A stretch of DNA of 64,000 nt. Origin: Sarcocystis neurona (lineage: Eukaryota; Apicomplexa; Conoidasida; Eucoccidiorida; Sarcocystidae). Both the position numbers and the translations under genes were made by a program. Within the stretch, counting starts at the first letter, position 1, and the number at the start of each line of letters is the position of its first letter. Below, piece by piece: positions 31,517 through 63,084 of this stretch. The notes beneath the pieces were generated by a model. That model worked only from the letters and a program-made list of their open reading frames with translations. It had not been told where the DNA came from and searched no databases. The stretch is taken from positions 5,503,573-5,567,572 of the forward strand of contig KL647290.1 of NCBI GenBank assembly GCA_000727475.1, read 5' to 3'.

Positions 31517-34500
31517 CAGCAACAAAGTCTAGTCGTATGAAGAAGATACATAGAAAACGGTGTCTGACTAGACGAAGGTACGCATCTGTCTAGGAGAAAA
31601 AGAAGAGGGGGATAGTCTCACCAGCAGATGGACTTGCTGCTGTATATACGCTGAAGCGCACCGTGATAATTATATCTGTAGGTTCAGGCTGATGCGTGAA
31701 CGTGTAACACAAATTAGAGAATAGCATACGAAAATGCTCAGCCGCAGACCAGTAAACTCTGAAGGATTCAGTGGTAAGCACAGCACTCGGCCTTGTACTG
31801 CCTGGCGGCAGCGGGCAGGCCTCCAAAGGTGTGCGAAAGCTACCAAGGAAGACCTTTCGTCCCTTGTCGTATACGCACGAGCCAAAGCGAAGTCACAAGG
31901 GCACATTCGTCCAAGAGAATCATTGTGACAAGAAGTCGAGTATTCTAACGTGTTAGGGTGTACGACCATCATGTGAGTGCATCGCCACTTCAATGAGAGG
32001 GGAGCAGAACTGCATGAAAACCACGGATTAAGCGACAGGTCGTGAGAATGTCAGGAACACGTTTACCAAGTCGCCGGGGAAGCCAACCACCAGCGAGCGA
32101 ATGAACGAAAGTGCCAGGAGGTCTTTCGCGAGCGTGCTTGATAGCGTGTATCTACTTCCCATCCGTTTATGTACCTATGTACTCCAATAGGTTAAGAGTT
32201 AAGCGCATACGTACGCGTGTGTGCGTGCAGCGTGTACGTGTCTCTATTCACATTCATAGTTACATGCAACGTATTCCTTCTGGTTGTAAGACAGGTACAA
32301 TGGATAGTGTGCGTCTTACATAAAAGACTTGTGACGGACGCAGCAACTTGTGGGGTCGAACCACAGAAGCTCGTAGTGACTGGAAAATGCTTACTTGAAA
32401 ACGCCTGTGTGCGTCTCCCGAGTAAGCTCCCGCACACACCATAAGGCTACGGGAACACTGTTGAAAGACATACGATTAAAGGCTTATCACAGCTACGTGG
32501 AGACGCGGTTCGATTAAACAATTCCAACCTCATTATCATTGAAGAATCTGTAGCGGACAAACAAGAGACGCGACGAAACCGCGCATTTCTGGCCCCACGA
32601 ATTGAAACTTGAAATTATACGTGTATATACATATGTACATGTACAGACGGGACTACTTCAAGCCGCGTATGAATAACTACATATTTGCGCTAATCAATAA
32701 AGCTAGCTGTGCATCACGCATACATCCGAATACCGTGTAGATGCTAGTAGCTGTTTTGGTGTTTAGCCGAGGCGCACAATAGTAATAATATTCTTTCAAA
32801 CGATGCTCCGGATGGTTACAACAATTATAAGGGAGTTTTGAGGACGCTTATTTTCCTACGGTACGCTGCTCTAATATCGCACCTTGGAGTAAGATTAATC
32901 CTATGGGTGGTTGTGAATAGAGAAACATATCAGACTAAAGAAAATAGTCGACAACTTGTCTGGCGGTGTCCGTGTGTGGCGCGTGAACGCGTTGCTCCGA
33001 CGCAGAAGTGTAATTGCGTGTACGATGCCTGGAATTTTGCATTTGTCATGTGCTTGGCATATAAAAAATATTGAGGAGACCACACGCACGTGGCGCCGCC
33101 TCTACACCGGCTGAAGGCCTCTGTTTCTATTGGTGCAGAAAACGCCGGAAATTCACTACCTACTCCCTAGTGTTGTGCTATTTCCATATGCCAGAACCAC
33201 ACTGATTCGTTTCTTACGATACGGGTTTGCGGGGAGCACGAACAACATCAACTGGCATGGGTGTTCAATTTCCGGGTGAAGGCGAGCTAGTTCTACACTG
33301 CATAGGCCAAGAGATGCTCTTAAAGTTGCACGCGCCTTTGTCGCATTTTTATTTTCTATACTACGCGTATTCAACTGGCTGCATACATGAGTAGGCCAGC
33401 CTCGTAGCCCATGAGGTACTCGAACGGAGTTTGACTTCTACGTTTGACGAGGAAAGGATGTCACTATGTAATGCACGTGTGTGTACACACATACCCAAGC
33501 ACACATACCCCGCATCCAGTCATCTTCAGCTCTATCTCAACGGATGCTCGACGCGGCCTTTTTGTCCATGGCGCACATTTGTACAGTTCGAGGCAGCGAC
33601 CTGCTACGAACAATTAGACTAGTACAATCTGTGCAATGGAAGAAAAAGCGAGCTGCCACATATAGCATTCCAACCCTACGTGGACTCATTCACCTACACA
33701 GACAAATATAGGTGCACGTACGTGTGAAGCAATACCTGTCTACGATGTACACAAAATCCCACCTTCCCATCTGTGTACGTCCGTCCATCTATATGTACAA
33801 AGCTGCACATCTACCTGTGTCCATACAGAAGACAAACGGAGCATCGCACTTGGACGTATACTGACGCAGGTTTGATAGTGCGACTTGCAGGTAACCTTTG
33901 CCTCGCACATTACTGACGAGGAACTATTTGTTTTGAGTGCGCGTGAACCTCTTATGTATACCTGATAACCAATACACCTCTGCACCAGCACATACGTTCG
34001 CGTGTGCCTATCGCTATACACATGCACTCCCGCATGCTTGCACAGCACATGTCTGTATGCTTGCACAGCACATGTCTGTATGCTTGCACAGCACATCTCT
34101 GTATGCTTGCACAGCACATATCTGTATGCTTGCACAGCACATATCTGTTCTTTCCTTTCCTCCGAACAACCTAATTCATTACAGCGGCGTCTTCGTATCT
34201 TCGCACATCTCCAGTTTGACATACACACGTATTAACACACAAGCTCGCAGTCACGAAGTCATAAGGATGTCCTGGCAACTTCAATGCGGAAAGATGTTCC
34301 ATGTCCATTGAGTGTATTGTTTGATCTTCTATAGGCTGTTCTGCTTCTATCTGGAAGAGGGCCTCGGTAAAGGAGGAGCGCGGCAGCACGAATAGGGCTG
34401 ACACTTTCTTCCTGTACAGAACGAGACAGCCGTTACCAGCGGACACCAGTTTCCACGGCGCGAGCACGAAATTACAGAATACACTGCTTTGCACAAGGGA

Positions 34501-39700: not shown

Positions 39701-42700
39701 GCCAGCGACTCTATACCTTTTTTGCTTTCTTCCTCTTTTCTACGATTCCTGTACACAAACGTGTGAATCTATAGATAGGTATGTACGTATATATATATAT
39801 ATACACACATGTATATATATGTATGTACGTATCTATGTATATTTACACAGATATACATATATGTTTATTATATGTGGAAGTGTGGACAGCTCTACTCGTA
39901 CTATACCCTGGTGTATGAGCACCCAGCTGCATTTGCGTTGTGTATCCCCGGCTGTGTGGTTGTAGTGCCTTGCAGCACAGCAAGAATGGATGCCTATATT
40001 TTCTCTTTCTTCTAACAGACTGGCACGAAGTGATCAAGAAGGCCAAGGGGTTTTACAATAGAAGATACCCGTTTTCCCCTCTTGCAAATTCTTCGTAGGT
40101 ATTATGGCGTAACAGCGACTCACACACACACGCCCGTATGTGTAGAAATACGTATATAAATACATATTCGTACAACTCCACATATTTCTACGAGTACCAC
40201 ACACGGTTACTTATTCCGCTCCACCAATCCATGCGGCCCATTTATCTATCGCGGATGCTTGAGTATGCGAGCGTACTAAGGTGTCACTTTTTGGTGTATG
40301 TACACTGGAACCTCTATGCCGTGTACGACCGCGCTGGCGTCCTCGGCGTCCTTAAGAAGCTGCCATCAACTGACGGTCGACGGGACTTCAGGCAGCTGAG
40401 AAGTTGGGAGAAGAATTCTCCTACAGCGGAGCGAATCTTACGGTACACACGCAAACACACGTATATTATATCTTTATTTGTGATATTACGGTGGCTGGAA
40501 TTTCTGGGTGTACGTACACCCAAAATTTCTGACCTGTCCAAGTACTTTCGCGTTGTTCCAGTCTTTGGGCTGCTTGCTTTCGTTTGGCTTCAAACAGCGT
40601 ACAAAATGAGATTCTGTTGTGCTGATCAATTCCAGCAATGCGTTGAGCGAACGCATAAACTGCGATGCAATAAGTTGACCCTTTCCCAACTTTCCTTTTT
40701 CCGACACCACATGTTCGAACATAGTTCGCACGACCTGGTTGGTTGATGCCTGTGGAGGAGAACCGGAAGAAGTAGCGAAAGGACCGCGCAGGGGGGACAT
40801 AGAAGAGTACGGCAAGAACAAGATTCACAAAAATAAGGAAAGGGGAGGGGAAGAGAGTGACTGGACAACGGGGAAGGCGGATCAACGAAGGCCGAGAGAA
40901 AAGTTGAAAAAGCGTGGCCGCGAAAAAAATGAGAGTTAGGAAAGGACAGAGAGAGAGAGGAAGATCTGGCGGGAAAAAAATGAGGGAGTACCAAGTGGGA
41001 GGAAAGGTGAAAGGAAGTGAGAGCGAGGCCGAGGGATGAAAATGAAAGAATAGCCAGAAACACAAACACGAGACGGTGGTGGAGGAGAGGCAGCAAAAGA
41101 GAAACCTTGGAGAGTGACGAGAAGAAACCGTCTTGAGGAGAGAACGAAATGGAAGGGAAGACGGTGTGAGGAAGAGACACCGAGACACGAGAAGTGCTGA
41201 AGAACAAGTGAGAGAAAGAAGGAAAGGAAATGGACAAAGTCCCAGAAGCGAGCAACAAGAAGAACGACACGAGAAAGAGACGTGAACCGGAGAAAGGAAG
41301 GCAGGAAGACGAAAAAGGAAAAGAAACCGCAGACGGAGGAGGAGAGAAATGAGACGAGACAGGGGATGGCATTTACGACAATTTAGAGAGGCAGACAGAT
41401 AGAGGAGCAACACAAAAATAGAAAAAGGGAAAAAGAGAGGACGAAAAAAAAGACAGATTTCTTGGGGCGAGAGAGCACGACCGGGAAAGAAAGCAAGGGA
41501 AAGAAAAAGGAGAAGACGAAAAGGAGATATCCCAGAGACTGTATTTCTGTAGCTGCTTAGACAAGGAGAAAGCGTCACACGGAGAGATAAAGAGAGTAGA
41601 AAAGGAGACGAGAAAGGGAAGAAAAAAGACGCAGAAGAAGAGAGCAGCACACCGCTGAAGCCAGAGAAAAGTGTCACAAATCGAGACCAAAAGGCAAAAA
41701 CGCAGAGGAGAAACGAGAAAGAAGAGGAAAATAGAAGAAGCGGTGGGATGACGGGGAGCCCGAGGCAGAAGCAGAGAGGGAAGGAGAGAAGGAGAAGAGG
41801 AGAACGAAAAACAAGAAAAACGGGAGCACATACCGGGAGAAAATGAAAAACAGATGCAAAGTAAGGAAGTCGACCGGGGCCCGACGCGTTCTTACTAACT
41901 TGCTGCTGCTGCCTCAGTTTCGTAGAGTCACACACGTGAAGCAGGCGGGAGACAGCACGGGGCAGAAGAAGGAAAACGGGAAATGTGAGTCTCAGTTGAA
42001 AAAGAGGAGACGTGCGAAGAAAAGGAAAAGTGGAGGTTCTTCACTTCAGGGAGGGGAAAAGTGAAAGAGAAGCGACCACGGTAAAAAAGGGGAACAAAGC
42101 AGTGAGCAAATGCACGCTGTTGCCCATCATCACAGACAGATGATGCAGAGATCAGAGAAAAATTTAGGAGGAGCAAGAAGAAAGTGAAAACTAGCCATTG
42201 GCGTCTGTAGACGCCAATTGGACGCCAACGCATGCAATACCCCTCTCCTTCTCTCCTCTTTTCTTTCTCGCCCTCTCCAGATAAATATATATATATATAT
42301 ATATACGTAGGCACACACCAGATTATCTATCCTGTTCCTGGGTAAATGTATTTACATAAGTATACGCAGCCAAGACGTGGATGCTGATTGGTAGAAAGGT
42401 GTGTATACTCCATGTATTTAAAATCTGTGTACACATATGTATGCGATATATATGTATGTATGTTACACGTATGCTGTACAGACGCATATGTTACACAAAC
42501 GTATGCAATATTGTAGAGAAAAAGAGACCTACACGAATATATACATATATATATATATATATATGTGAACACACATGTATATTTTCACTAGAAAGAGGAA
42601 GTCACATATATGGATATATATACACACATATATTCTCACTAGTTGAGATGTATATGTATATACATATATATATATATATATATATGTAGACACATTCTCA

Positions 42701-45700
42701 CAGTGCCCACCGTACCAGCGCGGGACGTCGCGGTGTATTTATGTACAAATTCAGCAAGACATTTCTGACGCTCTCCTTATTACTGTGTCCCTGCACGTCC
42801 GTATATTGAAGCTGTCAAGCACACATTAATAAATAACTACCCATCAATATAAGCATAGATACATATATATATATATATATATACATATATGTATACGTTT
42901 ATAAAGCTGGCTGGACGAAGAGCCACGTGTAGCTTTTTTTTTCTCTGTCTTCCTCTCTGTGCGTGCCTATGTCTCTCTGTCTATGTATCCACGTCCCTAC
43001 CTGGCTACGCCTTTTCATTGATTTACACAAACCTTCTCTATATATCTATCTATCGCCGAAGAAGTACACGTGTATTTCCGCTCGCCGCGGGAAACATATA
43101 CCTCTTCGTCTAAACTGCCGCCCACATGCACCGACGCACAGATATACGAACAACTGCTCCTAGTCCCCCTCTACACAGACATGTACATCATACACGTATA
43201 TTTATATACGCATGACTGTACCTCCTAATATGAACAAAACATGCCCTATCACCTGTCTCGTTGCCACCAAGCCAACATATATACACATATATATATATTC
43301 ACGTATACGCACGACACTACCTCGTGATCCATATATGAATAAAACGTGTCCTATCACTTGTTCCGTTGCGACCCTCACACACGTATACACATAATATTAG
43401 ATGTTCTGATCCCCCTCTATATAGACGTGTACAATACAAACATATATATATATACATATACACGCCAGCAGGCATTCTGATTTATACATATACATCTACA
43501 TATATATACATATATAAATGGATGTAGAAAACTTTTACTTGTATTATGGACTGCTGTCGAGATACAAACACTCATATTCTATATACGTACACACACAAAC
43601 AGACACCCTGACTCGTATATATATATATATATGTGTGGAGACATAGAGAAGCAAAGATAAACGAATATTATAATGACCACGAAAGCAGTTCCTTCCAATG
43701 ATAGAAGGAACTGCCAAAATCGGGAATTTCTCCTTCTTCCTGATGCACTGTTCAACACTTTCTCTGCCGCCGATACTCGCCACTTGACATGGAGACACAG
43801 ATATATAAACAGCCTCACGCTTCCACGCACAAATTATTTCTTTACACATACATCCATATATATGTAGAGAGAGAGGGATACACATATATATTTACATATA
43901 TATACCTACACAGATAAGTAAATGGAGATGTATATGTGTACTAACATTTGTATGTGTGTAGGATGTGAGCGAGTGCACATGCTTGCAAACATCAATATCA
44001 TCTCCCATATAAATATACACATATGGTGGGACAAGATGGATAAATAAGATGGAAAGATAAGACGGATAAATAAGATGGGTAAAGAAGATGTATAGATAGG
44101 ACGTACAGACAGGATGTACAGATAAAATGTACAGATAAGATGTGTAGATTAGGTGGGTGGCTAAGATGTATAGATCAGATGGACAGATAAGATAAATAGA
44201 TTCAGATGGGTGGGTATATGTAAAAGAGAGATATATACATATATATACAGATGAATATAGATAGATACAGAGATACAAAGAGAGATACACAGGTACGAAG
44301 TCACGAAGATTTGCAAGTATTTACATCCAAATCAAGATGATATCTACGTACAGATGCAACTGTGCACGTTAATATCTATACATTTAAGTCAATATACATA
44401 TACGTGTGTGTCAGTACGGCTATATAGAAAAGTCTTACCTTTAGGATGGCGCGAGCAGGTCTGAGTCCAGCAGATCATCGTGTATATATATATGTATCCA
44501 ATTATCTATATTCATAAATCAAAATATGTATACACATATATGTAAGTGTGTGTCTGTATAGTTACATGAGTCTATTATCTTCAAGGTGGTGCGCACGGGT
44601 GGTATCAGCAGATCTTTACATATATTTAATTACCTATATTTATAAATCAATATCTATATATATGTAGAGACAAGTGTGTGCCTGGGCAGGTAGACTAAAA
44701 TAGCTACCTTCAAATTCGGCCACAGATATGGCTTAAGCAGATCTCTGTATATCCAGGTACCTATATTTATATATCAATATATATATACACAAACGTGTGT
44801 CTTGATAGATAGAGGAAAATATTTACCTTCAAAATGGCGCACAGCTCTGGCTTTAGCAAGTCTTTGTTTTTCGCAATAAAACCAGTGGCGTCGTATTGAA
44901 TATCGGCGATGGAGTGGCAGATGACGAAATTTACGCGAGGGTTTTTCTTCCCCGGCTTCCACGCGTCGCTCATCGCCAGGCACTGGCTCAACGCCTGTAC
45001 GATCGACTGCAGAAAAAGAAAAAAAAGAAGAGGAGTAGAAAGACCTCGTAAGTCGAAGACGTATTTATCAAAACGAAAGAAAAGGGCGGTGGTGCTGCTG
45101 GAGAGGTCCTTTTCTTCGGTTGTCGTTGTCAGCTAGAGGCGCAAGAAGTAAGTGTGGAGGCGCCAAGGTCCGAGACATTACTTCTCATGAAAAATGGAAA
45201 AAGTCGAAAGAGAGAAGTCTCGCACACATATCCACGTGACTCAGAAAAAAAGCTGCTGTGGAAGCAGCAGCAACAGCAGCAGTCTCATTTCTGCGGAAGT
45301 AGCAGCAGCAGCAGCCTCAGCTTCCGCCTCTTCTCCTTTTTCCTCTCTGTCTCTTTCTGTCTCTTTTTTCTCCGTTTCTTGCTTTCTGTTGCACTTCTCT
45401 TCTTGTTCTTCTTGCTTTCCCTTCTCCCCTTTTACTAGCACTTTCTTCCCCTCTCCCATTTCCTTTCCTCCTCTCCTTCTCCCTTTTTCTCTTCCCACTT
45501 TCCTTCCGTTCTTCCTCTCCTTCGCCCACGCGCTTTTCACTTTGCGACGAAAGTGACAAAAAGAAGAATGAGAACGACCGCCGGGACTGCTGCACAAAAA
45601 GAAAGCCGCGATGCTGTCCCTTTCTCTGCTAAGAAAAAGAAACGGAAAGTGCCAGAGAAAAGCGAGAAAAACTGTGAGACACAAGACGTAAAACTAACAG

Positions 45701-47401: not shown

Positions 47402-50400
47402 GTGTACACGTATAGTAAAAGAAAGAGAGAAGGATACGACGACATATAAATATGTATATATATGTAGAAAAAGAGAAAGAACGATATGATTATCCACGCA
47501 CGTGTGAATAGACATATATATGTATATACATATGAAGAGAAAGTAGACTATACACGTCATTGTAAAACGGACAGAGAGTTGAACTACCTACACCTACACA
47601 CACATATATACACGCACATATATATATGTACCTCGTCTGTGCCTCCAGGGGCTAGGCTTTTGTCTTCGAGTAAGGCAAGGACGGATTTATTTTTTCCGCA
47701 GAGAGCCTCTACGACTTCTTTATTATCTGTCCACTCAATTTTGGCATCACGTATTCCTTCTGCGTGATACAACTCTGTCTCCTGTACTCAACAAATTCAC
47801 ACAAACACATGTAGACACGAATATATATACAAATAGATGGCTCTACATCTACACACATATATATACGCATATATATATATGTGCGCACACAGATCTGCAA
47901 GCATAGATATATATATATATATATACGCACAAACAAATATTATATATATGTAGGAATATATGCATCCATACACACACACACACACGTATACACTAATATA
48001 TATAAGATATATACACCTACACGAGCATCGCTACAACCTGTAGTACAGTATAATTTATGTATGTGCGTGCGTCTATACATTAAATGAAACACATATTGAT
48101 AATATTGTATATGGATGTGAAGGTCTGCTACCATACGTATTACCCATATACATGTATATCTCTCTCTATACAGATCTATCTCTCTATCTATAAAAACATG
48201 TAAATCGATGTCTACGAAACTTTGAATATTTCTATAGACGTATATATGTTGAACGTATATATTTGTACGTGTCTACACATCACGGACAGATACGTAAGTC
48301 TTCTCCCAGTTCTGCGACCACATCCACAGACATACACACATGTGTGTATACCTATATACACACATATATATACATATATATATATTTCCCTCTCTCTTTC
48401 TCTTTTCCTTCTCCCTGGGTGGGATATTCGTATATCCGTACATATACATACGCACACACATGTTTACAAACCCATATATTTTCACAGTTGACACACATCA
48501 CATGTTTCTGTGTCACGTACATGTAGAAATTTCTCCCAACACAGGACTCCCATATGTGGATAGAAAGGGAGAGGAAGAGAGAAGACTACAACAGTAAGAG
48601 CGCAGGTGCAGAGAAACTGCTTTTTCGAGCTGGCCTCTGCAAAGGGCGTCGTCACGCACAACTCTCCTCCTCCTCGTCCGCCGGCAGCCTCTCTGTCACC
48701 CCGAATTTTTTTTTCTTCTCTCTTTTCTCTGCTCCACAATTCCTTCTCCCTCGTCTTTCCATTCTCTTGCCTTCTGGCAGAGATGGGCAAACAACAACCT
48801 ACTCGGGCAAAGACAATTTGAATAAACGCCTTCTGCAACTGCTCATTTGTTATATTTATCAACAGCTGCTCCAGAGAATTGTGTTGAAAAACTTCAAAAC
48901 CAAAGATATCCAGCATTCCTACCACACACACACACACACACAAACGCATGCGTACACACGTCCACCTATATATATATATATTCCAGTCATTTCGAAAGCA
49001 AAGGCATGCGTGCACACGTTCACATATGTATCCATGTATACATATATATATATGTATGTATATATAAACTTATTTGTATAGCATACCTATTATATCAAAG
49101 ACAAAAGCACGCGAGCTGTCAACTGAATTAATGTATATATGTATTTATGTGTACACACACATATCTATATAAGTAGACTAAAGTGAGCACTAGTAAGCAT
49201 GTGTATACATTATCAACACACACGTACCTCCACACACATATGCATATTAACATTCACGTGTACATATATATATATATATATGAATATAGGTATGTAGGCA
49301 CGTATGAACGCACACGCCCGTCTGTGTACGTATACATATATATATACATATGTACGTAAGTTAACCAGGTGGACGTGTTCTGTCTCTTCGAACGCTTCCA
49401 AGTGTTCAAAAACGTCTCTTTGTTTTCCAACTCCCTGTCTCTATACATATATATCAACCCTGACGCATACAGCTACTAATACATATTTATGTATACACAT
49501 ATATATATATATGTATATATGTATATATATATATACAGAGAGAGAGAAAGAGAGAGAACTCAGGCATACAGCTACTAATATGTACACATATGTATATACA
49601 TATTTATACATATATATATAGATATATATATATATATATATATTTGTAGGTATATGTATATGTATATATATAAGCGGGTGTGCGGAAACATATCCCTTGA
49701 ACAAGAAACTTACACGTATGTCAACATCTACGCCTAATTGCATACACACTCCATATATACACACTCCCATCTATCTATACCCATCTACCAATACCTATAC
49801 CTATCTATATCTATGTATCGACCTACATCTTATCTACCTATATCTATCGTTACCTGCATATATCTATCTATACTTGTACCTACATATGTTTATGTACATC
49901 CGTATCTACATCACCTAAGTCTATATATATATCTATAATTATATTGATCTATGTCTATCTCCACCTATGTGTATCTATCTATACTTCCATCCTTACCTGT
50001 AACTATCTATATCTACGTCTATGTATCTACCTGCGTCCGTACGTCTACTATTGTCTGTATCTATCTAATCTGTGCGTAGTGACATCTATCTATACATACT
50101 AGTCTACGTATATGTATCTATCTATATTTATCTACGTCTAGCGATATCTATCTATGTCTATCTATATCTTTCTGTATCTATCTATCTTTGTCTATCTATG
50201 TATGTATATCTACATATCTACGTACACCTATCTATCTACATCTGTATCTACCAAGCCATATCTATATCTGCCTATATCCACATCAATCTTTATCTATCTG
50301 TATCTCTTTGACCCTACCTATATCTATCTACCTTTATCTATTTAAATCTATCTCTCCACACATATACGTATATGTTTGTTTATATCTACCTACATACACA

Positions 50401-53400
50401 CCTATCTACATCTACATCTATCCGTATGTATTTACCTGTATCTATTTATTTGTATCTATTTATTTGTATCTATCTATACATATCTATCTATACCTATCTA
50501 CCTATATCTACCTCTCTTCCCCTTTCTCTCTCTCGCTATATATATATATATATATATGGGAAGAGAAATCCAGGTTTGAATAGCTTGGCTTCTTTTTGTT
50601 CCTGTATCTTTTCCCCATTGCGACCCACGTTTATTTCTGATTTGACGTCTTAATTTCTTCTTCTCCTTCTGCCTGTCTCTCTTCCGATATTTTCCTTCTC
50701 TTCCTCTTTTTCTTCCTTTTTATCTCGCTCACGCTTCGGGTCGGTCTACCATCTCTCCCCGTTTCCACGCACATACACATATACATACAAACACACATAC
50801 ATATATATACCTGTGCCTATATCTCTACACGTATATAACAGCAGAAAACAGACATGTATATATATACGTGTGGTTATATCTCTACACGTATATAGGAGTA
50901 GAAAACAGACATACATATATATATATATGAGTGTGCCTGTATGTCTTCACATATATAAGAGTAGAAGACAGACATATACATATACACATACGTGTGCCTA
51001 TATCTCTACACATGTACAAGAGGAGGAAGCAACGAAAGGAACATTTCTTTGAGGTATACCTACGAATTTAGTGAAGCCCTGCTCAGGTTGTATAGTTTGA
51101 TTAAGACGAAGAACTACCCAGTCGAAGAGACGTTCATATATCGCCTTGGCCAGAGAATCGCGATTTACTTGAGCAGCCGAGACTGCTACGGGACTCTGAA
51201 TTTCCTGGTTGCCTGCGCAGCAGAAGTAGATTGAGGCCGTACAGAAGGGAAAAAAGAAGGAAAGAAAAGTGGGAAGAAAGACGGGGAGAAAGGAGGACAA
51301 AAAGAAGGAAAAGAAGAAGGCAGCAAGAAAGAAGGAAAGGAACGCGAAGAAACTGTGCGAAGCGGCTTTTTGAAGACGTGCCTTCCGAGGAGAAGAGAGA
51401 CGGGCGCAGAGAGTGAGAGAAGGAGGAGACGGGGGGGAGCCGAAGGAGACGAGACACGAACAGTGAAAGGCAGCAGGAAAAGAGAAGAAAGCAGAGAGAG
51501 AAGAGAAGTAGACGAGGAGGCGGCACGCAGAGAGAACATGGGGGGAGAAAAAGAGAAAGGGAAGAGGGAGGGGACGAAAAAGGAGAGGAAGAGATGGGGA
51601 CGGGTGGAAGTCAACGGCCCGCGGAGACGCATGCGAAGAAGTGGTGAGACATCAGAAGCAGAGAAGGTAGTAGAGAAGAAGTACGCAAAAGCAGGGAGAG
51701 GCGTCCAGCAACAAAGCAGAGAGACCAAAGAAGAAGAATAACAAAAACAGGAAGGGGAAGAGATAGGAGGCCCCCCTCTTCTTTTTCTCTCCGTCTCGCT
51801 TTAACCTTTCAGAAGAATAACAAAAACAGGAAGAGATAGGAGGAGCACGGGAACAGGAAGAAGAAGAACCGGTGAAAGCAGGGCAGGAAGAAGAGAAAAA
51901 GGAGGAACAGCAAGAAAGGGAACACGACGAAAAACAAGAAGAAGATGAATAGGGAAAAGATGAACAAGGAAAAGAAGAAGGAGGAGAACATAAATAAGGG
52001 AGGAAAGGGACACAAGAAAACGAAGGCGGAGACGACGTGGTCGGGCGCGGGTCGCAGAAAGCAGAAGAACATAGAGACCCTACGTGACTAAGAATAAACG
52101 CATTTCGTATTAAAAGAGGAAGAAGAAGAAAGGAGAGAATGGAGAAGAGAAAGGAACTCCACAAGTGTGAATGAATAAAGCAAAAAGGGAGAATAAACAG
52201 GGAAAAAAGGAACTCCACAGTACAACAAGAAAGCAACGAAGAGATAAACTTCCGCTTCCAAAGATGGGAGAGTGCAATCAAAAGAGCAATACACACACAT
52301 ACGTATAGGCAGACTTCATACAAAACAATAAATATATATATATATTTACGTAATATATATATATAGGTAGATATATAGAGATGTATATGCGTAGATATAC
52401 GCTTTCCTCCCCTTTCTTCCGTCGCCCTCTTTTAGTCTCCTTTTCTTCTCCCCCTTTAACCTTTCAGCCTTCACGTACATACATCTGTACATACATACCT
52501 ATATACATATGTATATATATACACATTTGTATACATACGCACATATATATATATAAATGTACACCCGCATATATATACGTATATATATGTGAATACTTAG
52601 GTAAAGTTACACATAGAGTGTATGTGGACAAAATCATACTTAACACAGACAGAGGCACACAGAAGCATGGACACATACTTACACATATACATATATACAT
52701 ATATATATATGTACACAGACATATATAGCTGTAGAAAAAGGGAATAATAGAACCTGTAAGCTCCTTCGATAGATGCGATATACACTAACACATCAAAATA
52801 GAAGTAAAGCTGAATACGGAGACGCACGTCGTTGACAAGCACTTCCTTGTGTGGGCACACACGTATATACACAAATGGAGGGGGAACAGATTTATTTATT
52901 TATATGCATGCCTACGCTTGCGGGCAGCCTTCTATCTCTCTTTCTCTATGGATATATATACATATATATATACATATATATGTACACATTAACACACATA
53001 TATATGTATACGTGTCTTTACGTTTATAAATAAACACTGCAGAATGACGCCTACAGAGAGTACAAAAAAAGTGAAGTTTGCTTCCTACATCCGCAGAAAT
53101 ATTCACAAACACCGGCACGTACACATCAACAGGCCTCTCCTACGCATACACAGACATATTTATATATAAGGACACGTGTATATACATACATATATATATA
53201 GCCAGCGAAGACGTCACCACGCACGTAGAGACAGGCCTCTCCTAACTCCCCATGCATATATGTATATATACAGAGAGAGAGAGAGGGTATGGACAACCTG
53301 CAGGTATACCTGATCTACCTCCTTGTGTGTGATCTCGGGTATTCATTATTAGCCCATTTCAAAGTTACCTTGTTAATCTACAGGTATTCATCGACAAACA

Positions 53401-58646: not shown

Positions 58647-61600
58647 NNNNNNNNNNNNNNNNNNNNNNNNNNNNNNNNNNNNNNNNNNNNNNNNNNNNNN
58701 NNNNNNNNNNNNNNNNNNNNNNNNNNNNNNNNNNNNNNNNNNNNNNNNNNNNNNNNNNNNNNNNNNNNNNNNNNNNNNNNNNNNNNNNNNNNNNNNNNNN
58801 NNNNNNNNNNNNNNNNNNNNNNNNNNNNNNNNNNNNNNNNNNNNNNNNNNNNNNNNNNNNNNNNNNNNNNNNNNNNNNNNNNNNNNNNNNNNNNNNNNNN
58901 NNNNNNNNNNNNNNNNNNNNNNNNNNNNNNNNNNNNNNNNNNNNNNNNNNNNNNNNNNNNNNNNNNNNNNNNNNNNNNNNNNNNNNNNNNNNNNNNNNNN
59001 NNNNNNNNNNNNNNNNNNNNNNNNNNNNNNNNNNNNNNNNNNNNNNNNNNNNNNNNNNNNNNNNNNNNNNNNNNNNNNNNNNNNNNNNNNNNNNNNNNNN
59101 NNNNNNNNNNNNNNNNNNNNNNNNNNNNNNNNNNNNNNNNNNNNNNNNNNNNNNNNNNCCTCCTCTCTCTCTCTCTCTACTATATATATATATATATATA
59201 TATACCTACACAAAGAGTAGGGCCATACATATATATACACACACATATAGTAGGTGTGTTTATATGTATATGTATATATGTGTATGAGTCTATACTGAGT
59301 AGTACAGTCATATATATATGTATAGATACAGATAATATTTATAGTAGCACACCCTCTCTTTCTTTGTAGAGTAGGACCATATGTAGCAGGTAGGTTTATA
59401 TGTATACAGATAGAACATATATATATGGACTTCTTCTATGTATAGAACGACCGTCTATACAGTACACGAACATGTATACATACGCACAGAAAAGATACAT
59501 ATACACATAATGAATTAAGTAGAATCCTCTCTCTATCTATAGTAGGTCCACATATATACATATACATGTATATATCATATATATATAGTGCTTTGATATA
59601 TATTTAGCAGGTGTGTTTGATGAGGTTTTTTTTTCCTTTCGATAAATATGAACTACACCTCCTTATGAAATATTCACAGAAGTTCCAATACATCTCTATC
59701 GCTCTCTGCGCCTATAATAAATTGTTGACGATTCCTTGCACTCTGCATATAGTCGTAGATTACGGTGCTTCACTTGTCTTAATATTGAACAACACATATC
59801 TACTAAAAGAAACAGACGTAGGAAAGAAAATAGTCGGGAATACATGCACAGACCGTCCAGGAGGTCATACCTACGAAAACGGAGATTCCTGCAGACAGCA
59901 CCCCTTCTGCCACCACCCAACATAAATCAATCTTCCATGCCGCACAAACATTTAAACGTACATAGAAATACGACAATACATATATATATACCTATACATA
60001 CAAGCATATATATATATACACGCGCTGGTACAAATACACATATATTTATATATATATATGTGCGTATGCGAGAGAATGTATATATATATATATATGTATA
60101 CTTGAACGAATGTGTTAAGCACTAATATGTATGTGTATATGTATATATACATGTATATATATATATGTACACATGGACATAGACATACAGAGAGAGAGCG
60201 AGAGATAGAAAAGTAAGATTCCGCTGAGAGCACGCGTGGGGATATACATCTGTTAATCGAACTGCGGAGTTGTGTACATGTTCTAGCACAACTTTTTTTC
60301 TACAGAAACGTGGCTAAATCTGCAAATACATATATCCAAGCCCGCAGAGACGGACACATGTATCTTATACACGCACACCATATATAGAAGTATATATTGT
60401 AAAGAGACAGAGAAAGAGACACACATAAATATCCTTGTGTACTCACACATATGTGAGCCACATACGCCTACATATATACATATATATGTATATATGACGA
60501 CTCGAAGAAGCGTTCATATATATATATATATATATGCACGTACACGTATATAAGCGTATCTTTGGGGCGACTCAGAGACACCCACACACACACAGCCGCA
60601 CTCATATAGCTACGTCTTCGCCTACGGAAGTATATGTATGTATACACCACGTCTATATATATATATATACATATAGGTGCAGACGTTAACGGTTGAGACC
60701 TCGACCAGGAGGGCAGAGAGGAATGGCACACGGCGGCAGAGACGTCCCCGCAGCAGCAGAGCAGCGGAAGGCGCAGCAACAGCGGAGGGGCAGCCGCAGA
60801 GACAGCGACGGTATCCACCGCGCTGCGAGGGAGTTGCAGCAAATGAAAATTTGACACGAGCAACAGCAGCAGGAAGTCAGACTCATATTTTTCCTTGAGG
60901 CAGCAGGAGCCGGAAGGGCAGCTGCAGGGGCAGCAGCACAAGCAGCAGCAAGAGAGCCGGGAAACGCAGCCTCCGCGAGGTGGGCGAAGCAGCAGCAGGA
61001 AAAAGAGCGGCAGAAGCAGAAACCACGGTGAAAGCGGCGGCAGCAGCAAGAAGAACAGCAGCAGCAGGGAGAGCACCAGCAGCAGCATAAGCAGCCGCAG
61101 CAGGTACGCGGAAAGAGCAGCAACAGCAGCATTCGTTCCCGGCCCCCACGCAGCAAAGGAAGGCGGCGCACAGGGAAGCAGACAGAGGAGAAGAAGAGCA
61201 AGAAGGGAAAGGAGAAATTGGCGAGGAAGAAGGAGGAGAAACTGACAAGAAAATAGATGAAGAAGAAGAGAATGACAACCTGACGAAGCAGGAGGAGAAA
61301 CGAAGAAGACGACGACTTGGCGAAGAAGAAACAAAGGACGAAAAGACGACAGCGGATGCATAAGACGTAGGAGACGCCAACTCGACGACAAAGAAGAAAT
61401 GGACACTTGTCGAAGGAGAGAGCGTGAAGAGAAGAAGAGAAATAGTGAGAGGAGGGCCAGTAGGACTTACTGGGACAGTTATAGCAGCCACCCGTTTGCA
61501 GATAAGAATACTCTTCCGGTGCAAGGAGATGAAGAGATGCTTTAAGAGAAGATTTAATTCCGCGCAGAAGCTGGTAGAATATATGGTAGGAGCGTTCTTC

Positions 61601-61750
61601 CTTGCCCTGGTGAGTCACGCGGACTTTCTCGAGAAGGAAATTTTTGATAAAGCCATGGCGGATGCCTCCACCTTCGTTGACCTGCAGCTGCATGAATCTG
61701 CCGAAACGGCTGGAGTTATTATTGCGCGTCGTCTTGGCATTCCCGAAGGC
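36796..61750 (-). CDS. Class XIV (apicomplexan) myosin heavy chain, 5'-truncated
   Basis: Eleven exons in transcript order: 61750-61471, 57666-57568, 54671-54501, 51212-51060, 48918-48803, 47781-47632, 45006-44827, 40749-40534, 39334-39204, 38331-38274 and 37011-36796 (stop TGA). They total 1770 bases, 589 residues plus stop, and every splice phase matches. Motor landmarks in order: switch [64 protein letters not shown], switch [46 protein letters not shown], converter [19 protein letters not shown], and a short neck ending [16 protein letters not shown]. This short neck without a long tail fits class XIVa motors (MyoA/MyoD type), which drive gliding, invasion or related traffic; the paralogue is not assigned. 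The P-loop (GESGAGKT) and N-terminus were not found before 64000. The visible part already spans 25 kb, with introns up to 4.1 kb, one containing the N gap. Confidence 0.95.
40505..40522. repeat. 18-base perfect palindrome next to a myosin donor site
   Basis: TGGGTGTACGTACACCCA lies within the intron, 11 bases downstream (transcript sense) of the exon ending at 40534. Its core matches the palindromes clustered at 14.2-14.9 kb in the CDC50 intron. Confidence 0.8.
40755..42130 (-). repeat. 1.4-kb polypurine/polypyrimidine tract in myosin intron
   Basis: The plus strand is GA-rich from just past the acceptor at 40749 up to about 42130. This gives a 1.4-kb C/U-rich tract upstream of that 3' splice site in the transcript. 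The 489-codon minus-strand frame here is compositional except for the conserved exon at its end. Confidence 0.85.
42197..42218. repeat. Short perfect inverted repeat (hairpin)
   Basis: ATTGGCGTCT and AGACGCCAAT are separated by two bases, and a further GACGCCAA copy follows immediately. It lies at the boundary between the polypurine tract and the TA-rich part of the intron. Confidence 0.75.
43205..43395 (+). repeat. Two-copy ~105-bp tandem duplication
   Basis: Both copies carry an ATATGAA(C/T)AAAAC(A/G)TG(C/T)CCTATCAC block and a GTTGC(C/G)ACC block. They are separated by a TA run of variable length, within the myosin intron 40750-44826. Confidence 0.8.
44034..44215 (+). repeat. 13-bp degenerate minisatellite, about 14 copies
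   Basis: Units of the form AGATGGATAAATA, AGATGTATAGATA and GGATGTACAGATA follow one another with a period of 13 and few indels. The array lies about 220 bases from the exon-fragment array in the same intron. Confidence 0.85.
44439..44865 (-). repeat. Four-copy array of a myosin exon 3' end plus splice donor
   Basis: The 3' end of the exon 45006-44827 (encoding [13 protein letters not shown], then GTAAAT) recurs three more times downstream in the intron. Exon-like blocks end at 44708, 44579 and 44439, spaced 119-140 bases. The block at 44708 reads [13 protein letters not shown] before GTAGCT. The 44579 block reads [13 protein letters not shown] but has lost its GT. The 44439 block reads [12 protein letters not shown], a stop, then GTAAGA. 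The intervening DNA also matches (ACACAC(A)CTT...GATATTGATTTATAAATATAG-like). This is a real duplication of exon end plus intron start. Confidence 0.9.
45255..45935. repeat. CAG run followed by strand switch of purine bias
   Basis: A short CAG/CAA cluster (45265-45320) is followed by a pyrimidine-rich plus strand (about 45320-45540) and then a purine-rich one (about 45550-45930). The sequence thus forms a mirror-like switch of purine bias within one myosin intron. Confidence 0.7.
49740..50560 (+). repeat. Degenerate (TATC)n tract, ~0.8 kb
   Basis: TATCTATCTA-type tetranucleotide sequence with TATCTACCTA, TATCTGTA and similar variants continues almost unbroken, ending in a (TA)n run at about 50540. 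Open frames over it (YLYLYL and IYLYLS peptides) are artefacts. Confidence 0.9.
50808..51020 (-). repeat. ~65-bp tandem repeat, 3-4 copies, beside a myosin donor site
   Basis: Units contain (G/C)TGTG(C/G)CTATATCTCTACACGTATATA and AGTAGAAAACAGACAT with a variable TA run between. The last partial unit ends about 40 bases from the exon end at 51060. The array thus occupies the first part of the intron after that exon in transcript sense. Confidence 0.85.
51235..52300 (-). repeat. 1.1-kb polypurine/polypyrimidine tract in myosin intron
   Basis: The GA-rich plus strand begins about 25 bases past the acceptor at 51212 and continues to about 52300, broken by a short pyrimidine patch at 51775-51810. 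Around that patch, AAGAATAACAAAAACAGGAAG occurs twice (about 51732 and 51813), a local duplication. Confidence 0.85.
53495..53760 (+). repeat. ~110-bp repeat, two to three degenerate copies
   Basis: ACAGA(A/G)A(A/G)(G/A)AAG(C/T)GC(T/A)GA blocks are followed by TATTC(G/A)T(T/A)CATATATA, a TATTAC(G/T)TC block and GGGTA(T/C)GTA. Copies start near 53506, 53571 and 53665. All are within a myosin intron. Confidence 0.7.
58647..59158. other. Assembly gap (512 N)
   Basis: The run of N is flanked by a 30-base (TA)n tract on the left and CT and TA runs on the right. It falls inside the myosin intron 57667-61470. True length and content are unknown. Any open frame across it is meaningless. Confidence 0.99.
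60715..61135. repeat. CAG/GCA-rich low-complexity segment in myosin intron
   Basis: GCAGCAGCAG, CAGCAGGAAG and GGCAGCAGC runs dominate the plus strand, reading as CTG/GCT in the transcript. The same composition appears in the CDC50 intron at about 16.8-17.4 kb and at 18.3-19 kb. Confidence 0.8.
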
Positions 61751-62560: not shown

Positions 62561-62814
62561 AGTTGGGGACTTCGTCCGGGAATAAGAAATACGTACAAGT
62601 TGGACTTCGTCCGGGGATAAGTGCAGCGCGAGACAGACAGGAAGAGAAAGAGAAAGACACCTGCACGCCTATACATATATACGTTCATTTACATATACAT
62701 GTATGTGTGTAAATGTATGTCTCTCCTTGCCCTGATAGAGAAACGTGTATACGTCTGCGTGTGTCTATAGAGAGAGGAGGAGACATTAGAACAGAGGAAG
62801 GGAAGAGAAGAAGA

Positions 62815-63084
62815 GGTAGACACGCAGCTGCTTCTTCGGTAGGTAGACACGCAGCTGCTTCTTCGGTAGGTAGACACGCAGCTGCTTCTTCGGTAGGTAG
62901 ACACGCAGCTGCTTCTTCGGTAGGTAGACACGCAGCTGCTTCTTCGGTAGGTAGACACGCAGCTGTTTTTTCCATAGGTAGACACGCAGCTGTTTTTTCC
63001 ATAGGTAGACACGCAGCTGCTTCTTCCATAGGTAGACACGCAGCTGCTTCTTCCATAGGTAGACACGTAGCTGCTTCTTCCATA
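62815..63084. repeat. 27-bp minisatellite, ten perfect-length copies
   Basis: The unit GGTAGACACGCAGCTGCTTC plus TTCGGTA repeats ten times with no indels. Copies 1-5 end TTCGGTA, 6-7 have TTTTTTCCATA, and 8-10 end TTCTTCCATA, with one CGTAG variant in copy 10. Because 27 is divisible by three, the array is open as GRHAAASSV repeats on the plus strand and as TEEAAACLP-type repeats on the minus strand. No splice or start signals argue for translation. Confidence 0.95.

Follow-up and report, generated by a model that had tools for sequence, protein, structure and literature searches.

Tandem exon duplications and pseudoexons place exon-like sequence, together with splice signals, in a neighboring intron. 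The nearest described case that we found to the locus reported here is the potato RdRp gene, in which a tandem duplication across an intron-exon boundary is reported to have created a new intron (PMC4974935). In Drosophila, tandemly duplicated exonic sequence has been named as the source of certain introns (PMC2891723). Here we analyzed a stretch of 64,000 nucleotides from Sarcocystis neurona (assembly GCA_000727475.1, contig KL647290.1, positions 5,503,573 to 5,567,572 of the forward strand; hereafter the window, whose numbering we use throughout), in which the end of an exon of an apicomplexan myosin gene is repeated, with its splice donor and the start of the following intron, in a four-unit array. 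The four-copy tandem duplication is real. To judge from the sequence, it is a local duplication across the donor, and the extra copies are very probably decaying relics in an enlarged intron with no role of their own.

The array shares with tandem exon duplications and pseudoexons the presence of extra exon-like sequence and splice signals in the adjoining intron. Unlike those, it copies only the last ~40 bases of the exon and not the exon's own acceptor, and the one copy that is preceded by a TACAG is out of frame when included. As in the potato RdRp gene, the repeat runs across a splice boundary, exon sequence was copied along with splice signals, and former exon sequence now lies within an intron; the myosin array differs in crossing a donor, in having four units and in that the old intron merely grew, with no new intron or exon evident (PMC4974935). 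With the Drosophila cases it shares a duplicated piece of exonic sequence that bears a splice-type AG/GY motif, with one copy then lost from coding. Those cases concern new intron positions, which were ascribed to proto-splice sites within exons, whereas in the myosin gene an existing intron absorbs the copies (PMC2891723). In a literature search, no account came to our notice of the myosin array or of coccidian arrays in which exon tails repeat across a donor, which is not proof that none exists.

The array consists of four head-to-tail units on the minus strand, each made of a copy of the exon tail and 78-98 bases of intron. As in a splice-boundary tandem duplication, the copies lie on the same strand and in register across the boundary, and the repeat unit holds both exon and intron sequence. 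Unit 0 (44749..44868) is the real exon tail (44868-44827) with its donor, GTAAAT, and the first 78 bases of the intron. Unit 1 (44621..44748) carries an exon-tail copy that ends at 44708 with AAG/GTAGCT (the slash marks the boundary) and includes a possible 37-nucleotide mini-exon, 44744-44708, after a TACAG. The copy in unit 2 (44481..44620) ends at 44579 with AAG/ATAATA, having lost the donor GT, and that in unit 3 (44355..44480) ends at 44439 with AAG/GTAAGA kept, but has gained a 2-base insertion and a stop. The units as cut are 120, 128, 140 and 126 bases long, and the exon-like ends at 44827, 44708, 44579 and 44439 are 119, 129 and 140 bases apart. An earlier note on this DNA, made from the letters and a list of reading frames, gave the three donor states just as we find them. 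Its span of 44439..44865 covers the copies of the exon tail but not the intron bases of unit 3, which extend to ~44355, and the ~39 coding bases that it took to be repeated fall short of the likeness between units 0 and 1, which begins ~46 bases ahead of the exon end (44872).

When the last 40 bases of the exon were compared with the 4,077-base intron, the top three same-strand matches were the three copies, in order, all ending at the donor. Their scores of 20, 13 and 10 (copies 1, 2 and 3) were reached by 0, 1 and 13 of 2000 shuffled targets and by 0, 0 and 10 of 2000 shuffled queries. The farthest exon tail, taken alone (10), scores below the best antisense match in the intron (11) and below stray matches in the window (up to 12), so unit 3 is carried by its register and its intron part. 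Pairs of whole units scored 18-53 against shuffle maxima of 14-23, and none of 1000 shuffles reached the score of any of the six pairs, the weakest being units 1 and 3 (18 against a maximum of 16). Together with the three top matches, these pairs bear out the four-copy repeat of exon end, donor and intron that the earlier note had described; they also settle the doubt it raised itself, that a self-alignment might show the blocks matching no better than other AT-rich intron sequence. A hidden Markov model (HMM) built from the four units recovers those four, by construction, at E 2e-29 or better, and its next match in the window is AT-rich (E 2.4e-6).

A fifth copy beyond 44355 was also considered and rejected: an overlap-free test of 44354-44225 gave no exon tail. 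The best local scores of that segment were 18, 19, 16 and 12 against units 0, 1, 2 and 3, reached by 7, 0, 21 and 124 of 1000 shuffles, respectively. What matches is intron sequence rich in TA (44301-44236 for units 0 to 2), and this could be the trailing intron part of a further unit that lacks an exon tail. Among the matches listed for the four-unit HMM (to ~E 0.2), none falls between 44100 and 44354.

To describe the divergence of the copies, identities were counted against the real unit (unit 0) in this one genome. Going outward, exon and intron identity together falls from 85/111 to 77/110 and 64/111. The progressive degradation proposed earlier thus holds for whole units, but not for the exon part alone, which stands at 30/40, 26/40 and 27/40 in units 1, 2 and 3; the intron part stands at 55/71, 51/70 and 37/71. 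Between units 0 and 1, the exon part is no better preserved than the intron part. Differences from the real exon fall at codon positions 1, 2 and 3 as 4, 2 and 5 in unit 1, as 6, 4 and 6 in unit 2, and as 7, 0 and 7 in unit 3 (the two inserted bases left out), giving 6, 7 and 6 amino-acid-changing codons and 3, 3 and 5 silent ones. Only two sites unite all three copies against the real exon, and both are silent (GAC TTG vs GAT CTG). Two such shared differences fit what would be expected if the copies derive from the exon while the exon itself stayed under protein constraint.

The exon that ends at the duplicated donor (exon 9 in our own numbering; 44827..45006, minus strand, 180 nucleotides, phase 0/0) starts SIVQALSQ and is placed by its relatives and by the joined exons, which align to apicomplexan MyoA structures without a gap. 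The intron (40750..44826, minus strand), whose 5' end holds the three extra copies, is bounded by exon homology on either side, and the next exon (40534..40749, minus strand, 216 nucleotides), whose peptide ends NAKVLGQ, is placed by MyoA structure alignment and coordinates. The boundary reads AAG/GTAAAT, and the junction from 44827 to 40749 encodes CAILK/ASTNQ; relatives read CAILKASKSQ (P0001), CSIVQAS (P0002), CALLQAS (P0003) and CAILQAS (P0004) here. The relatives compared at the junction are the 120 listed out of 1797 matches to a chain of ten joined exon pieces. With a 57-residue junction peptide, a gap at the junction was found in 0/120 of them; the peptide aligned as a single ungapped block in 115/120, while the remaining five have their gaps 11-22 residues beyond the junction. 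At the protein level, the reading frame and the relatives thus back one junction and give no sign of a second, and the exon end at 44827, on which the earlier note depended, is supported by these relatives and by 60% identity of the ten-piece chain to Toxoplasma myosin E.

The exons of the myosin gene extend along the minus strand from ~61.8 to 36.8 kb of the window, and two further myosin-head matches lie outside it on the same contig and strand (the genome searched comprises 123 Mb in 74 contigs). Four joined exons aligned gap-free over 219 residues to the MyoA structures of Toxoplasma and Plasmodium. Among the matches listed, the ten-piece chain also shares 58% identity with Besnoitia myosin E, 59% with a Neospora hypothetical protein and 79% with P0001, a 570-residue protein without a name; the nearest named relative among them is MyoE. 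By its myosin head domain and this best named match, the gene is of the MyoA/MyoE type, which we take to belong to class XIV. Downstream of the four-unit array, the same intron holds an array of 13/26-base units (44033-44209). A run of N (58647-59158) lies between two exons of the gene. A 27-base repeat (62814-63080, 9.9 copies, 97% match) lies upstream of the exon that starts at 61750. Its period is a multiple of three, it is stop-free in all three minus-strand frames, and it may be either coding sequence or a young minisatellite. A 23-base repeat in five copies (97% match) is found at 34034-34148.

We looked for similar duplications elsewhere in the genome with a tandem-copy scan of 195 tests, covering 99 donor-side and 79 acceptor-side loci plus eight acceptors and eight donors of the myosin gene (one donor twice). 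The loci are matches to myosin, kinesin and ABC-transporter (L002-L081) and, on the donor side only, to kinase (L082-L101). The ends of domain matches stand in for exon ends, some loci overlap, and L008, L022 and L026 repeat exons of the myosin gene; two locus tests were dropped for N runs, and ten loci with stop codons in the match were retained. In 20 of the 108 donor-side jobs, the score was reached by 0 of 200 shuffles and beat the reverse-complement control, but most of these scored 16-36 and by eye are simple repeats. At a score of at least 40, a cut chosen after the scores had been seen, three of the 107 donor-side places (99 loci, 8 donors) stand out as tandem duplications: the exon at 44827, the intron after 51060 and L094. 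The intron after 51060, which precedes that of the four-unit array by three introns, has an array at 50789-51022 (period 57-63, 3.8-3.9 copies) whose likeness starts 28 bases into the intron. L094, in a kinase gene (1-400), has two copies ~106 bases apart that start ~10-20 bases into the putative intron. Only at the exon ending at 44827 does the repeat include exon bases. On the acceptor side (79 loci and 8 acceptors), two places reached 40, a CTG-rich minisatellite (L063) and a TA/CA-rich pair (L022, identical with the acceptor test at 48920) with a reverse-complement control of 27-30. Calling the latter a simple repeat is a judgment, as its complexity of 4.71 is near those of L094 (4.77) and the intron after 51060 (4.82). 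Duplication of intron starts thus occurs in this genome, and the four-unit array looks like such a duplication whose left edge reaches into the exon.

In the duplication-and-decay reading that we prefer, a stretch of ~120 bases, beginning ~40-46 bases upstream of the exon end and reaching ~80 bases into the intron, would have been tandemly duplicated to four units, perhaps by slippage or unequal exchange in TA-rich DNA. The first donor would still join the frame-correct exon to the next exon and would presumably be the only one used. Because it stayed in use, the later copies would be harmless: falling within the intron, they would leave with it and be free to decay. The outcome would be a longer intron with relic exon tails and pseudo-donors, presumably without function. 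Several observations weigh against this account. Gap columns are rarer in the exon part (0, 0 and 2 in units 1, 2 and 3) than in the intron part (9, 22 and 24, counts that take in unit-end overhangs and one gap in a repeat tract), the exon part of unit 3 is better matched than its intron part (27/40 vs 37/71), and the same unit has no change at codon position 2 (0/14). We take these patterns to be chance or alignment effects, though they lean the other way. The estimate of rarity from the scan is crude, because match ends replace exon ends and the cut was set post hoc. Finally, GT is kept in two of the three extra donors, and GTAAGA in unit 3 matches what we take to be the U1 consensus at least as well as the real GTAAAT does, so competition between donors is possible.

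Such competition could be put to use if the copies were decoy donors that bind U1 and tune a weak real donor while themselves remaining unspliced. The two extra AAG/GT sites lie in register within 390 bases of the real one, and by the consensus we assume, GTAAGA is the equal of the real site. However, unit 2 no longer has a working donor (ATAATA), and decay has not clearly slowed in the sequence flanking the donors; we regard this role as very unlikely.

A second functional possibility concerns unit 1, where exactly 37 bases lie between the acceptor-like TACAG and the donor GTAGCT. Spliced to the real exon, they read ...CAILK-RSA-stop, so that inclusion would add three residues and a stop within the motor domain. 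Unit 1 could then be a poison exon that lowers myosin E in some stages, for example through nonsense-mediated decay. At least two real acceptors of the myosin gene also do without a long pyrimidine tract (before 47781, ...gagtacag; before 48919-48920, ...gtgtggtag). Against this, GTAGCT is presumably a weak donor by the same assumed consensus, the tract before TACAG is AT-rich, 37 bases make a very short exon, and the exon part of unit 1 has diverged as much as its intron part. We therefore consider a poison exon improbable, to much the same degree as decoy donors. As for coding use, the open frame of unit 1 is the ancestral one, and the TACAG acceptor leads into another; read-through beyond the first donor would run 19 codons to a stop, ahead of the next donor. 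Neither inclusion of the mini-exon nor read-through would add usable peptide, and the most that could be expected is a poison exon. The acceptors of units 2 and 3 were inspected by eye. The earlier note had the size of the mini-exon right, but at 37 nucleotides with a stop after three codons, unit 1 is not the frame-compatible copy that an alternative (mutually exclusive or cassette) exon would need. Frame, read-through stop, relatives without a gap at the junction and divergence of the nearest copy lend no support to the use of copies as alternative exons, and the idea of a splice-site array in the making found no positive evidence in the sequence. Taken together, there is a slim chance that a functional poison exon in unit 1, or decoy donors, born from the donor-spanning duplication, adjusts myosin E in some life stage.

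Units 0 and 1 also contain an abutment of acceptor and donor, ATATAG/GTA, at 44749-44780 and 44621-44650. These motifs (tataaatatag/gtacct in unit 0 and tataaatatag/gtaatt in unit 1, 66 and 74 bases past the respective donor positions) could serve recursive splicing of the long intron. This is highly improbable, as units 2 and 3 carry ATATAG/ATA and GTATAG/ATA, and no pyrimidine tract precedes the motif. Chance resemblance, which an intron rich in TA-type simple repeats and the weakness of the farthest exon tail on its own (13/2000 target and 10/2000 query shuffles, stray matches of 11-12) might suggest, is almost certainly wrong, since the exon tails are the three top same-strand matches in the intron, all ending at a donor, and all six whole-unit pairs beat 1000/1000 shuffles.

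The myosin array would appear to be the same kind of event as the potato RdRp and Drosophila duplications, on the donor side, and ordinary genome drift as far as its letters tell. Taken by itself the example is a modest one, yet it provides a clear natural record of a donor-spanning duplication, seemingly absorbed in silence by an intron. It suggests an asymmetry, in which a duplicated donor does no harm provided that the first donor wins, and a duplicated acceptor does none provided that the last acceptor wins. Gathered genome-wide, such arrays would let natural sequence reveal how a donor is chosen among duplicated sites.
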